DNA of 64,000 nucleotides from Ornithinibacillus bavariensis (GTDB lineage Bacteria; Bacillota; Bacilli; Bacillales; Amphibacillaceae): positions 434,001-498,000 of the forward strand of contig NZ_BORP01000002.1 of NCBI RefSeq assembly GCF_018333235.1, written 5' to 3'. Shown in pieces: positions 2,032 to 64,000 of this stretch. The stretch's first letter is position 1, and each line of letters begins with the position of its first letter. The position numbers and the translations under genes were made by a program. The notes under the pieces were generated by a model, which saw only the letters and a program-made list of their open reading frames with translations, ran no database searches and had not been told where the DNA came from.

Positions 2032-2535
2032 ATGTTTAAGAACCTTTTTAAATCTAAGGAAAAGCATACAACAAATGGGATGGAGGTTTTTGCTCCAATT
2101 ACGGGTAAATTTGTTTCAATTGAAGAGGTGCCTGATCCTGTGTTTAGCCAAAAAATGATGGGAGAAGGCGGAGCTATTATTCCTTCTAATGGACAAGTTG
2201 TTGCACCTATTAGCGGTGAAATTATTCAAGTGGCACCGACAAAGCATGCAATTGGTATTTTAGCTGAGGATGGCTCGGAATTATTATTACATATCGGGTT
2301 AGAGACGGTTGCAATGAGTGGGGAAGGATTTACTGTTCACGTCAACCAGGGTGATAAAGTGCAAGTTGGACAGCCCTTATTGGATTTTGATTTAGCATCG
2401 GTTAAAGAGAAGGCAAAGGATAGTATATCACCAATTGTATTTACTAATAGTGGTGATACTGGTAAGACTTATGAGCCAGTACATGTATCCGAATGTCAAG
2501 CAGGGGAAACAGTAATTTTTCAAGTAAAGAAATAG
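2032..2535 (+). CDS. PTS glucose-type EIIA component
   Basis: A 167-residue stand-alone EIIA of the glucose/beta-glucoside family (Crr-like). It carries phosphate from HPr to the EIIB domain of the permease two genes downstream. The domain fills about residues 15-165. The two active-site histidines are visible: H72 in PTKHAIG and H87 in LLLHIGLET, the latter being the expected phosphorylation site. A good AGGGAGG ribosome site precedes the ATG. It is the first gene of the operon. In many Bacillaceae this domain is fused to EIICB, but here it is separate. It could also serve other EIICB proteins that lack their own EIIA. Confidence 0.9.
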   Translation: MFKNLFKSKEKHTTNGMEVFAPITGKFVSIEEVPDPVFSQKMMGEGGAIIPSNGQVVAPISGEIIQVAPTKHAIGILAEDGSELLLHIGLETVAMSGEGFTVHVNQGDKVQVGQPLLDFDLASVKEKAKDSISPIVFTNSGDTGKTYEPVHVSECQAGETVIFQVKK

Positions 2536-61006: not shown

Positions 61007-61529
61007 CTAGCGCTCCGGCTTCTAGTCCGTTATTAATTTCAGTTCTATTACTTACTAACCCTCCTGCTATAATTGGTAGGTGGGTTAGTTTTGTTAATTT
61101 ATCGATGATTTGTGGCATTACGCCAGGCAAAACCTCTATTGCATCTGGTTTACAAGTGTGAGCGATTTCAATTCCTTTTTTCATGGCATTCCTGTCAATT
61201 AAAAAAATACGCTGGATTGCCATGAGACCTTCTTCCTTAGCATATTTAATTAAATTACTTTTCGTCGTAATAATACCTTTCGGCTGCCATACTTCTGTTA
61301 TATATTGAATTGCACTCTTCGTATTGGAGAGCCCGTCAATAAAATCTATATGAACAAAGGTTGTTTTATTATATTTCTTTAAACGGTCTAAATAATCCTT
61401 CGTTGTCATCAAGTCGCCAGTTAATAGGAAAATGATATTTGAATTACTGTGAATTGCCATATCTAAATGATCCTCATGCTTGACCGAAGCAATAACCTGG
61501 GATTGAACTAAATCTACTATATTGTCCAC
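60963..61529 (-). CDS. glpP: Glycerol-3-phosphate-responsive antiterminator
   Basis: A 188-residue TIM-barrel-like RNA-binding antiterminator. FVHIDFIDGLSNTKSAIQYI (about 74), GIITTKSNLIKYAKEEGLMA (about 98), AIQRIFLIDRNAMKKGI (about 117) and DAIEVLPGVMPQIIDKL (about 138) match GlpP as I remember it. In B. subtilis it binds glycerol 3-phosphate and lets transcription pass leader terminators of glpD, glpFK and glpTQ. Here the two leader terminators at 55833 and 56179 are the nearby candidate targets. GTG start after GGGGAGTGAG. Confidence 0.92.
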   Translation of the reverse strand: MDNIVDLVQSQVIASVKHEDHLDMAIHSNSNIIFLLTGDLMTTKDYLDRLKKYNKTTFVHIDFIDGLSNTKSAIQYITEVWQPKGIITTKSNLIKYAKEEGLMAIQRIFLIDRNAMKKGIEIAHTCKPDAIEVLPGVMPQIIDKLTKLTHLPIIAGGLVSNRTEINNGLEAGALAISSGDPKLWNLNI

Positions 61530-61560
61530 TAATTTCTCACTCCCCTATTTTTTGAATCGA

Positions 61561-61866
61561 TTATACCATAACAATAAAGAGCAGGTATAGAGCATAAAAC
61601 AAAAAACTCCCTATTTTTCGACAATAAATGACAAAAAACAAGGCGAAAGCAATCAATATCGATAAACTACAATTTAAAAAAACAAAAGATGATATCTCCC
61701 CAAAAGCTAGCGAAAATACCATAAGTGGGGTTCATAAAAATAAGCCTATTATTTGTCCCATGCCAATGCGTAAAATAATGAACATTGTATTTACAATTTT
61801 CCCCCCCATTACATCATGCATTGATGAGATTGGTTTGTAAAGTGAGTAGAGAAGGTCGTATTTCAT
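61561..61866 (-). pseudogene. Small membrane-protein gene interrupted by an in-frame stop
   Basis: From ATG 61866 to TAA 61561 the minus strand gives 102 codons in one frame, with a single TGA at 61734-61732. The two halves read MKYDLLYSLYKPISS...GQIIGLFL and TPLMVFSLAFGEISS...ALYLLFIVMV, together three or four hydrophobic segments with plausible loops. One base change (TGA from TGG or CGA) explains it. The C-terminus faintly resembles cation/proton or calcium antiporters, but I would not name it. The ribosome site is weak, so the true start may differ. Confidence 0.5.
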
Positions 61867-61907
61867 AACAATTATTAACTCTCTATGACTAGTTATACAA
61901 TTCCATC

Positions 61908-61948
61908 AAAAAAAGCCAACTCCTCCGTATACGCACAGGAAATCGGCC
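61908..61948 (-). terminator. Terminator of the peptide/M50 protease unit
   Basis: On the minus strand GCCGATTTCC pairs, with GU pairs, to GGAGGAGTTGGC, followed by seven T at 61914-61908. Confidence 0.65.
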
Positions 61949-62021
61949 ATTTTTAGGTTGAAGCTTTGTTTTTAGGTTAAGTAAAATTGCTTTTATTTAT
62001 TCCAGAATAGCTGCCATTCCT

Positions 62022-63047
62022 CTAGAGCCAAATAAAAACGAGAAGTGCAACCGTTAGAGGAGGACCAATCAGGTAAAGAATACTATACAGTCGTACGACT
62101 AGGCTTTCACCTGAAAAGATTTCGGTATTTTCTTTTTGTTTAAGAAACGGAAACCATTTGCTTAAGTAATCTTTACTATTTTCCATGAGGCTATAGCAAC
62201 TAGTCATATTTTCGAAAACATAGTATAAATCTGTTTTCATATAAATACAGCATTGGTAAACCGTTTTTATACAAATATCAAAGATGATAATTGTAAGTAT
62301 ACTAGTCCAAAAGGTACCGCTTCCATTTAAGAAGATAGAGAGTAGTAAGGTGGTGCTTAAAATCACTTGTTCAAATGCCATACCACCTAGATAAAGTGTA
62401 TTTCGTTTACGAGGTGGTAATTTCCAAGCGGAAGTTAAGTCTGTTTCCAGGACAATAAAAATTAGTCTATGTCCCACAGATAGTTTTGTTGGTAAATCGT
62501 AAGAACGGATTGCTAAAATATGGCCAAGTTCGTGTATCATAAGAAGTAAAAAGGATATGGCCGCATAAATAAGGACACTAAGAACAATAGAATCAACTAA
62601 AAAGATATCACGATAATGTGGAATAAATTCTGGATGAAAGATAATTAATGTAATATTCATGATGAAAAAAGCGAAATACAGTATAGTCGATATCTTATTA
62701 AAAAAAAGTTTTCCAAGCTTGGGTGAAATCCACTGCATCCCTTTTATTGAAGGTGCTTTCTTCACAACCGAAGTAGCTTGTCCATCTACTGTTTTAACTA
62801 GTCCAAATTCCATTAATTGATAGGCAAAATCAATAACTTCCACTTCTTCAGAAGAATATACTTGTAATAATTGATACTCCACCTCGCTAAGCTTTTTTCC
62901 TTGGTTGATTAGCTCGATTGCATCAATGCAAATCTGTGGCATCTCAAAAAACTCTCCAGTAGCTTCATCTTCAATAATGAAGTTCTTTTTATCTGGGTGT
63001 ATTTTTAGTGGATATAAAGTAAGCTTAGACTCTGCATTTAGTTTCAT
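62022..63047 (-). CDS. M50-family (site-2 protease-like) membrane metalloprotease
   Basis: A protein of about 341 residues. Residues 1-90 are a soluble winged-helix-like domain (FFEMPQICIDAIELINQG, FAYQLMEFGLVKTV) reminiscent of PqqD-type peptide-binding domains. Then come five or six hydrophobic segments. HELGH near residue 170 is the zinc motif, followed by AIRSYDLPTKLSVGHRLIF. The layout resembles peptide metalloproteases of RiPP clusters such as YydH. I take the ATG at 63047 after GTGGTGGTG; a GTG at 63062 lacks a ribosome site. Only 42 bp separate it from the 22-residue peptide gene, its likely substrate. Confidence 0.82.
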   Translation of the reverse strand: MKLNAESKLTLYPLKIHPDKKNFIIEDEATGEFFEMPQICIDAIELINQGKKLSEVEYQLLQVYSSEEVEVIDFAYQLMEFGLVKTVDGQATSVVKKAPSIKGMQWISPKLGKLFFNKISTILYFAFFIMNITLIIFHPEFIPHYRDIFLVDSIVLSVLIYAAISFLLLMIHELGHILAIRSYDLPTKLSVGHRLIFIVLETDLTSAWKLPPRKRNTLYLGGMAFEQVILSTTLLLSIFLNGSGTFWTSILTIIIFDICIKTVYQCCIYMKTDLYYVFENMTSCYSLMENSKDYLSKWFPFLKQKENTEIFSGESLVVRLYSILYLIGPPLTVALLVFIWL

Positions 63048-63089
63048 GATTGGCACCACCACTTCTCTCTATGTTCATAGAATGCTAGA

Positions 63090-63158
63090 TTAGTTTAGTG
63101 GGAAAAAGATGCACCACCAGCAAGTTGCTTTAACTTTTTTTAGCTTACGGACTTTCAT
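63090..63158 (-). CDS. 22-residue CWWC peptide, putative protease substrate or signal
   Basis: Minus strand ATG at 63158, stop TAA at 63092-63090. A perfect AAAGGAGGTG ribosome site lies eight bases upstream, unusually strong for this window. Residues 1-12 are strongly basic (seven Lys or Arg). Residues 13-22 read CWWCIFFPLN, so a C-x-x-C of two tryptophans is followed by a hydrophobic tail. There is no long leader and no double-Gly motif. It is encoded 42 bp before an M50 protease with a PqqD-like domain. A ribosomally made peptide processed within the membrane, as a pheromone or small bacteriocin, is my best guess. No modifying enzyme or dedicated exporter is visible. Confidence 0.7.
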   Translation of the reverse strand: MKVRKLKKVKATCWWCIFFPLN

Positions 63159-63189
63159 TTTTATACACCTCCTTTCAAATTTCCTATAG

Positions 63190-63244
63190 AAAAAGGAAAG
63201 CGAATGCCTTCCCACTTTTTTAATGCATTTCCCCTTTGGAAATG
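63190..63244 (-). terminator. Two hairpins between the HD-GYP gene and the peptide gene
   Basis: On the minus strand GCATTTCC-GGAAATGC type pairing (63244-63224), then GGAAGGC/GCTTTCC (63212-63195) followed by five T. The second is a likely terminator only about 35 bp before the peptide start, leaving little room for a separate promoter, so it may act as an attenuator. Confidence 0.6.
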
Positions 63245-63249
63245 CGAAG

Positions 63250-64000
63250 TTATTTTGTTTGCTCATGGTGTTGTTTATAATGTATTTCTTCCCAAGTGGG
63301 ATATACTTGGATAAATATGTCGACTAGTTCAGGATCAAATTGAGTACCTTTTCCTTCTAAAATACGATTATACGCTACTTCATTTGTAAGTGCATCTCGA
63401 TATGCCCTTGATGAGGTCATAGCATCAAAAGCATCTGCTATGGATGTAATTCTAGCAAGAAAAGGGATTTCTTTTTCCTTTAATCCATTTGGATAGCCTT
63501 TCCCATCCCAGCGTTCATGATGGTGTAAGATCACACCGAGGTTATTCGAGATTTCAACCACATCCTCTACAGCCTTAGCGCCAATCACGGGATGTTGTTT
63601 TATTAAATCAAATTCTTCTTTTGTAAGCTTCCCTGGCTTTGTTAGAATGGCATCTGGAATACGAATTTTTCCAACATCATGTAATAGGCAAGCAAAATAA
63701 TAGTATCGAAGTTCTTCTTTATTTAAGCTGCCAGTAGCTTTTGCTAGAGAAAGTGCATATTCTGCCACCCGTTCACTATGCCCACGAGTGTATGGGTCCT
63801 TCATTTCAAGCGTTTGAATTATTGCTTTCACTATACCTTCTAGTCGGTTATCATATTCTTGTTTTACTGCCTCTAAATAACTCATAAAACGATGAAGAAT
63901 GATATAAGAGATTATAGATAAGATAATAACAATTAACAATGGAAGGATTACAATAGAATCCCGGATCACACTACCGATAATTATGTATTTTAATAGGACT
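63250..64000 (-). CDS. HD-GYP domain protein, cyclic-di-GMP phosphodiesterase-like, 5' end missing
   Basis: The frame stays open to the right edge, so the N-terminus is outside the window; a GTG at 63969 is not compelling. Visible part: a membrane segment, a short coiled-coil linker and an HD-GYP domain with ERVAEYALSLA, CLLHDVGKIRIPD (HD), IKQHPVIGAKAVE, HHHERWDGKGYPNGL (GYP) and RITSIADAFDAM. Such proteins hydrolyse cyclic-di-GMP or related dinucleotides. C-terminus ends YKQHHEQTK. It may tie to EPS/motility control, but no direct link is seen. Confidence 0.88.
   Translation of the reverse strand, partial: VLLKYIIIGSVIRDSIVILPLLIVIILSIISYIILHRFMSYLEAVKQEYDNRLEGIVKAIIQTLEMKDPYTRGHSERVAEYALSLAKATGSLNKEELRYYYFACLLHDVGKIRIPDAILTKPGKLTKEEFDLIKQHPVIGAKAVEDVVEISNNLGVILHHHERWDGKGYPNGLKEKEIPFLARITSIADAFDAMTSSRAYRDALTNEVAYNRILEGKGTQFDPELVDIFIQVYPTWEEIHYKQHHEQTK

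Follow-up and report, generated by a model that had tools for sequence, protein, structure and literature searches.

The EpeX/EpeE/EpeP (YydF/YydG/YydH) locus of Bacillus subtilis encodes a precursor, a radical-SAM epimerase, an M50 protease and an ABC exporter. In the SHP/Rgg, agr and ComX systems, a small peptide with a basic N-terminus and a hydrophobic C-terminus is processed at the membrane, and the peptide has a variable specificity region and a sensor encoded alongside it; the SHP pheromones are processed by Eep and have the cytosolic Rgg as receptor.

The maturation of epipeptides by M50 proteases is described in PMC10885120. Two further papers describe the precursors of ThiF-like RiPPs as RRE-bound peptides, about 20 residues long, whose leader contains a (V/I)RKA motif, the enterofaecin precursor having a WW core (PMC12250964, PMC12150305).

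The window, the whole stretch of 64,000 nucleotides analysed here, contains at its right end, in minus-strand order, the end of an HD-GYP gene, a 22-codon ORF and an M50-type protease gene (Table 1). The peptide and protease genes had been read from the sequence as a minimal two-gene RiPP or pheromone unit (the original prediction).

Table 1. Features of the locus in the window and of the leaderless copy in a related genome
Feature	Position	Strand	Remarks
Window	G000:C2:434001-498000		Draft genome of 3.47 Mb
MASE12-HD-GYP gene, C-terminal part	63250..63999	minus	Gene leaves the window, to about 64425
Ribosome-binding site GAAAGGAGGTG	63176..63166	minus	7 nt before the peptide ATG
CWWC precursor peptide, 22 residues, MKVRKLKKVKATCWWCIFFPLN	63158..63090	minus	ORF and conservation
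Peptide parts: basic leader MKVRKLKKVKAT, then CWWC, then tail IFFPLN	63090..63158	minus
Gap between peptide and protease, 42 nt	63048..63089	minus	6-bp stem only in the window
RRE-M50 membrane protease, 341 aa	62022..63047	minus	ATG 63047, stop 62022-62024
RRE/PqqD-like domain, protease residues 8-87	62787..63026	minus	Secondary structure, fold matches, weak profile matches in relatives
HELGH zinc-protease motif, residues 172-176	62520..62534	minus	H, E, G and H invariant in 44 aligned relatives
KTD motif, residues 271-273	62229..62237	minus	Invariant in the family
Leaderless CWWC peptide MMARIFSCWWCFFVPKK	L160 (G143:C27), about 2098-2151		Good ribosome site, no protease following

The Peptide Gene and Its Conservation

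The 22-codon gene has the strong ribosome-binding site noted in the original prediction, and its relatives encode precursors of about 18-26 residues with the consensus MKIRKLKKxKxTCWWC, which is under strong purifying selection, followed by a hypervariable tail of 2-10 residues. Peptide genes were compared from 43 loci, all of them different from one another in DNA sequence. In the 39 with regular spacing, L6, C13, W14, W15 and C16 are invariant and the tandem TGG is always present. The codon test, from which the four irregularly spaced peptides were left out, gave a crude pS of 0.76 and pN of 0.11 over codons 2-16, and a pN of 0.57 versus a pS of 0.77 in the tail codons 17-19, so that the peptide is conserved as a protein, beyond the nucleotide level. 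A chance ORF was rejected for the 22-codon gene because of this amino-acid-level conservation.

Every collected peptide keeps CWxC, with V or I in place of the second W in L029 and L031. In a set of 77 peptides, F, W, Y, P and G abound in the tails, and only 4 of 454 tail residues are acidic. The peptide has the conserved leader and variable core found in the precursors of RRE-dependent RiPPs; it had no match in NCBIfam and one chance-like match in Pfam (E 0.2). At only 18-26 residues, such precursors are likely to be missed by genome annotation.

Pairing of the Peptide and Protease Genes

Protease homologues were gathered by searching 101 relative genomes, 24 of which gave a match, and by adding 24 loci from named genomes, mostly Neobacillus, Fredinandcohnia and Gracilibacillus; 47 loci were kept, with the exclusion of L001 and L003 (duplicates of the window) and L026 (a fragment with 28% identity). 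The peptide was found at 43 of the 47 protease loci by a scan of 450 nt upstream, and at 44 once L034 is added, where it sits 2042 nt upstream of the protease. By inspection, a group II intron reverse-transcriptase-like gene separates the two at that locus, in the stretch from about 2042 to 100 nt ahead of the protease. The three loci without the peptide (L023, L024 and L025) have proteases about 30% identical to that of the window and belong to a protease clade of their own, which is accompanied by ThiF enzymes and in which the small peptides are mostly of other kinds. The peptide is retained by all 44 close relatives that keep the protease, so that the loss which would have refuted the original prediction was not seen. 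The gap from peptide to protease is 35-123 nt in the 43 loci in which it was measured. It is far longer, about 690 nt up to the protease match, at L065 (G139:C4).

Separate searches were also made with one profile for the peptide and another for the protease. In the family sample, the peptide is present in 36 of 159 genomes and a near full-length close protease in the same 36 (Fisher 1.5e-36), with G108, which additionally has a broken protease remnant, scored as protease-negative. Four of these 36 protease matches contain one stop (G000, G003, G139 and G142), which in the window genome (G000) is the natural end. In the order sample, 43 of 397 genomes have a strong peptide match (E <=7e-7), and exactly these 43 have a strong protease match (E <=1e-136; Fisher 1.1e-58). 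Ten weaker peptide matches in this sample (E 0.0076-0.098) were treated as chance and excluded from the 43, and 17 of the 60 protease-positive genomes had the distant clade or a fragment only and were not counted as close relatives. Among the 220 genomes of the class sample, the sole one from outside the order with a close protease, G701, carries the peptide MNIRKLKKVKVTCWWCILFPKG. A plasmid search using the region gave no match.

The predicted pairing of the peptide and M50 protease genes is therefore confirmed as an observation, and the unit is almost certainly real. The peptide is likely the substrate of the adjacent protease, a membrane enzyme that would probably trim it.

The RRE-M50 Protease

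The original prediction placed a HELGH protease 42 nt after the peptide stop, which is what was found. The ORF listing gives a GTG at 63062 as the start, and the alignment of relatives begins at 63047. D273, in the KTD motif, is proposed as the third zinc ligand. At its C-terminus, the window protease lacks about 50 residues that its relatives have, and translation of the following DNA in three frames (window 61850-62024) showed no matching protease tail.

An AlphaFold2 model from 44 relatives (pLDDT 85.8) starts with strands, followed by three helices. Its six top Foldseek matches are crystal structures of RRE domains in complex with leader peptides (TbiB1, lasso B1 protein), with a probability of 0.98-1.00, TMt of 0.60-0.67 and E of 0.1-0.5. 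Lower matches include parts of McbBCD, ThcOx, SkfB and the sactipeptide enzyme 5why. There are 152 matches in all, every one of them weaker than E 0.001, and the best 50 include no M50 structure. In NCBIfam, the 44 relatives gave weak matches to a daptide protease model (28), a PqqD-type model (5), YydH/LiaK (4) and PqqD (1). The window protease alone matched PF02163 (17 bits) and NF041824 (15.4 bits) and had no PqqD match in Pfam, and the profile of the protease family had no match among solved structures at E up to 1. The N-terminal domain that had been expected to hold the substrate is thus RRE-like, with a PqqD-like fold, by its fold matches, and by sequence it is so weakly and in few relatives.

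The Upstream MASE12-HD-GYP Gene

By neighbour clustering, 44 of the 47 loci share one further gene, which immediately precedes the peptide gene. Whole copies were found at L051:3254-4426 and at L028, where Pfam assigns MASE12 (1.9e-52) and an HD domain. The HD and HHExxDGxGYP motifs are kept in 44 aligned copies, and the predicted structure (pLDDT 89.3) has low-E fold matches (down to 4e-11, c-di-GMP-type HD-GYP structures), all of which cover the HD part. The upstream gene has the motifs and the fold of HD-GYP phosphodiesterases, and, judged from its sequence, its product probably breaks down c-di-GMP. The window genome has nine GGDEF matches, so that c-di-GMP is likely in use.

A motif search of the fetched loci gave 78 distinct peptide genes, all 78 with an HD-GYP frame no more than 400 nt upstream and an M50 gene downstream; as in pheromone systems, a receptor-candidate gene is linked to a hypervariable signal gene in every case. 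The three genes stay together in many relatives of Bacillus. The MASE12-HD-GYP protein probably senses the CWWC peptide.

A search for MASE12 by itself found it in 39 of the 159 family genomes, comprising the 36 peptide genomes and G106, G108 and G143. In the order sample, it is present in 52 of 397 genomes, including 42 of the 43 peptide genomes; in the 43rd (G221), the peptide is 693 nt from a contig end and the HD-GYP gene is partial. In the ten order genomes with MASE12 and no peptide, the MASE12 gene is not HD-GYP, and in eight it has a kinase H-box. Pfam identifies the gene at L187 as a kinase, that at L188 looks almost the same as L187, and the copy in G441 is cut by a contig end. MASE12 histidine kinases of peptide-free genomes were seen at L189-L191 and L194-L196, among others. 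Such kinases may respond to a different ligand, or they may eavesdrop on neighbours. A MASE12-cluster gene with no HD-GYP motif also lies near the locus in 21 of the 24 named-genome loci, two of the 21 being confirmed by Pfam as MASE12 kinases.

Directly upstream of MASE12-HD-GYP, PspA and LiaF-, LiaS- and LiaR-looking genes were observed at L035, L043, L045, L047, L048 and L049. These PspA/Lia-like genes are present in 6 of the 24 named-genome loci, with the PspA profile run on one.

Covariation of the Tail with the Sensor

Tail distances were compared with domain distances over 77 loci, with L119 dropped because a contig end truncates its HD-GYP gene. In these distance permutations, which remove phylogeny incompletely, the tail correlates with MASE12 given HD (r=0.246, p=0.0005) and given HD and M50 (r=0.231, p=0.0005). 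The correlation with M50 is r=0.094 (p=0.0035) given HD and r=-0.029 (p=0.80) given HD and MASE12, that with RRE is r=0.070 (p=0.049) given HD and M50, and that with HD given MASE12 and M50 has p=0.084 (n=77 throughout).

In a stricter version, pairs and permutations were confined to clusters of relatives at three thresholds. Within clusters, the tail correlates with MASE12 at r 0.557, 0.459 and 0.338 (p=0.0005 at all three), the correlation with M50 is not significant (p 0.98, 0.23 and 0.12), and HD has p=0.008 at one threshold. With RRE as an extra control, MASE12 is significant in all four settings (p 0.0005-0.0025), and RRE itself, given HD, M50 and MASE12, is significant in two of the four (p=0.0015, 0.0020, 0.34 and 0.083). 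Because the tail also covaries with RRE, HD and M50 in some settings, the signal is not exclusive to MASE12. The pattern favours recognition of the tail by MASE12 and is also compatible with a degree of recognition by the RRE domain.

Other Neighbours, Sister Clade and Natural Losses

Neighbour clustering of the 47 loci, 23 of which span only about 1.5 kb on each side, gave no modifying enzyme or exporter among the conserved neighbours; leaving aside the clusters of the protease and of MASE12, the most frequent one occurs in 11 of the 47 loci. No conserved cluster fits a radical-SAM enzyme, an ABC transporter or immunity genes, and a ThiF gene is not a conserved neighbour at the 44 CWWC loci. 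The modifying enzyme that RRE-dependent RiPPs have in their locus is thus missing from the conserved clusters, and the absence of a radical-SAM enzyme and of a dedicated exporter, already noted in the original prediction, holds for the conserved neighbours. The interpretation as a minimal two-gene unit is partly supported: the pairing stands, but the constant third gene, MASE12-HD-GYP, had been overlooked. With this constant partner, a signal that has a receptor of its own becomes a likelier role than an antimicrobial RiPP.

The distant protease clade was sampled at 18 loci (L162-L179). A ThiF-type gene lies nearby at all 18 (the ThiF profile was run on two), and 14 of them have small leader-tail ORFs behind good ribosome sites, such as MKIEVKKTEKLKPTVIPYGG and MKKIVVRKLATVTVPQLRPGT, with the small peptides in two or three copies at 7. 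The sister proteases have HExxH in 18 of 18 and a K/R-T/S-D motif in 16 of 18. HTH-TPR-like genes were also seen at six sister loci, one of them tested by Pfam. These features suggest that the sister loci likewise hold peptide signalling or RiPPs, and their leader-tail peptides point to a basic leader with a variable short tail as the ancestral partner of the protease. The CWWC clade differs from its sister in having the sensor gene and no ThiF gene.

Two genomes have incomplete loci. G143 had no match to the peptide profile or the protease profile; it has an intact-looking MASE12-HD-GYP gene, followed by the leaderless CWWC peptide (Table 1), a hairpin and unrelated genes. Its same-genus relatives have the tails FIIPKG and FLVPKF. 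In this single case, the leader and the protease appear to have been lost together, with the sensor and the CWWC-tail part retained, which lends indirect support to the proposed removal of the leader by the protease. G108 has protease fragments with three TAA, a MASE12 match with two TAG and a frame ending in MCWWCTFLRW, which shows plain decay of the whole locus.

Proposed Mechanism and Alternative Explanations

Here it is proposed, with moderate confidence, that the locus is a three-gene peptide-pheromone unit in which the RRE-M50 protease cleaves a peptide that MASE12-HD-GYP then detects; the chances that the peptide is an extracellular pheromone are about even. Beyond the observed three-gene linkage, co-occurrence, selection pattern, RRE fold, M50 and HD-GYP motifs and tail-sensor covariation, we infer leader binding, cleavage and its site, release, sensing and the direction of the c-di-GMP response along the following lines. 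A precursor of about 18-26 residues would be made from the strong ribosome site, and its basic leader, KIRKLKKxKxT, would bind the RRE domain of the protease, which would present the peptide to the intramembrane HExxH site. Cleavage near the T-C junction would free a short hydrophobic CWWC-tail peptide, unmodified or disulfide-bearing, that would go into the membrane or outside the cell. The multi-helix MASE12 domain of the HD-GYP protein would sense it and change the breakdown of c-di-GMP. Several genera also have a MASE12 histidine kinase beside the locus, which may respond to this signal too. The tail would set specificity, so that lineages would differ in signalling type.

Several observations count against this pheromone unit. 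No exporter is among the conserved neighbours, 10 of the 52 MASE12 genomes have MASE12 kinases and no peptide, G143 is a single case, G108 represents decay of the whole locus, the window copy is atypical, and no M50 structure is among the best 50 Foldseek matches, none of the matches reaching E 0.001.

The missing exporter also fits an explanation in which the peptide is never secreted and acts as a membrane microprotein inside the producer, as a subunit or inhibitor of the HD-GYP protein that is turned over by the protease, with CWWC perhaps reading redox state or metal. The constant HD-GYP linkage (78/78), the CWxC present in every peptide, L029 and L031 included, and the peptide kept in G143 with no protease agree with it. 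However, a hypervariable tail with lineage-specific covariation resembles signal specificity, and the leader with an RRE domain and the tandem peptides of the sister clade (7 of 18 loci) resemble precursor maturation, and a microprotein is thus unlikely.

A membrane-active antimicrobial or toxic peptide of the epipeptide type, produced by the RRE-M50 protease, with the HD-GYP protein and, in some genera, the Lia-like genes as regulators or response and not as receptor, is quite improbable. The peptide is basic, aromatic and nearly free of acidic residues, M50 proteases mature epipeptides according to PMC10885120, a weak YydH/LiaK match is present in 4 of 44 protease relatives, and 6 of the 24 named-genome loci have PspA/Lia-like genes on the upstream side; however, these Lia-like neighbours are confined to one group of loci, no conserved radical-SAM-like, transporter or immunity cluster was found, and the tail variation tracks the adjoining sensor, which a killing function alone does not predict.

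If the pheromone unit is correct, it may represent a new class of communication, in which a CWWC pheromone is matured by an RRE-M50 protease with no modifying enzyme and is read directly by a membrane c-di-GMP phosphodiesterase, although we hold this only tentatively. Under direct reading, cell density or kinship would set c-di-GMP with no two-component relay, and MASE12 would be a peptide-receptor domain.

The Gap between the Peptide and Protease Genes

Folding z-scores in the gap average -3.2, versus -0.6 in an upstream control stretch, and are below -1.5 at 70 of the 78 loci. A perfect stem of at least 8 bp is present within 90 nt of the peptide stop at 72 of 78 loci, T-rich sequence follows the stem at 63, and GGATGC or GCATCC is present at 64. 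This terminator-like hairpin is read as keeping the peptide in excess over the protease. The window gap has no terminator-like hairpin (z +1.4), and Rfam over 61500-64000 gave no match; with its missing hairpin and shorter protease, the window copy may be atypical or starting to decay.

A trp-type attenuator, in which translation of the tandem-Trp ORF would control the hairpin before the protease, is very improbable: it would account for the tandem TGG (39 of 39 regular peptides), the frequent stem with T-rich sequence after it and the slightly greater length over which the ORF can pair with the hairpin arm, 6.50 compared with 6.01 after codon shuffling, but the non-Trp leader is conserved at the amino-acid level, the tandem Trp is broken in L029 and L031 though CWxC remains, the hairpin lies anywhere between 24 and 85 nt from the first W codon, the peptide and hairpin persist in G143 with no protease following, and the window has neither the hairpin nor an Rfam match.

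Comparison with Known Systems

A search of the open-licence literature found no published description of the CWWC peptide, of a function of MASE12 or of the three-gene unit. Processed peptides with a linked sensor are already known as a kind of system; an RRE-M50 protease combined with a CWWC peptide and a MASE12-HD-GYP phosphodiesterase has no match in that literature and looks undescribed. If the proposed pheromone unit is true, extracellular peptide signalling would be tied directly to c-di-GMP turnover in Gram-positive bacteria, the MASE12 sensor domain would gain a ligand, and a RiPP leader-recognition domain would be usable for maturing an unmodified signal. The natural tail variants and G143, with neither leader nor protease, make the receptor-ligand question directly testable.

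Like the EpeX/EpeE/EpeP locus, the CWWC locus has a short precursor and an M50 membrane protease, with YydH/LiaK matched weakly by 4 of 44 homologues. Unlike that locus, it has no conserved radical-SAM or ABC-transporter cluster, so that by neighbour clustering the epimerase and exporter of epipeptides are missing beside the precursor, and it has an RRE fused to the protease and a constant MASE12-HD-GYP partner.

The RiPPs of ThiF-like adenylyltransferases (microcin C analogues, enterofaecin, IndA) share precursors of about 20 residues, and the sister clade of the CWWC protease sits with ThiF-type genes. In contrast to these RiPPs, the 44 CWWC loci have no conserved ThiF/E1 neighbour, and the RRE sits on the protease.

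The daptide metalloprotease model NF041824 is matched by 28 of 44 homologues (best E 4.6e-10) and is collinear with the window protein, which, however, scores 15.4 bits and stays below the curated cut-off of 300.

The upstream protein shares the HD and HHExxDGxGYP motifs and the fold (E to 4e-11) of the HD-GYP phosphodiesterases DvhD, PA4781 and 4mcw; unlike them, it carries a MASE12 membrane sensor and has the peptide and protease genes as constant neighbours.

The SHP/Rgg, agr and ComX systems are matched in the basic N-terminus and hydrophobic C-terminus of a small peptide, the proposed processing at the membrane, the variable region and the adjoining sensor gene. The CWWC unit differs from them in that its protease bears its own leader-binding domain and in that the proposed receptor is a membrane c-di-GMP phosphodiesterase, and not a cytosolic Rgg or a histidine kinase alone.
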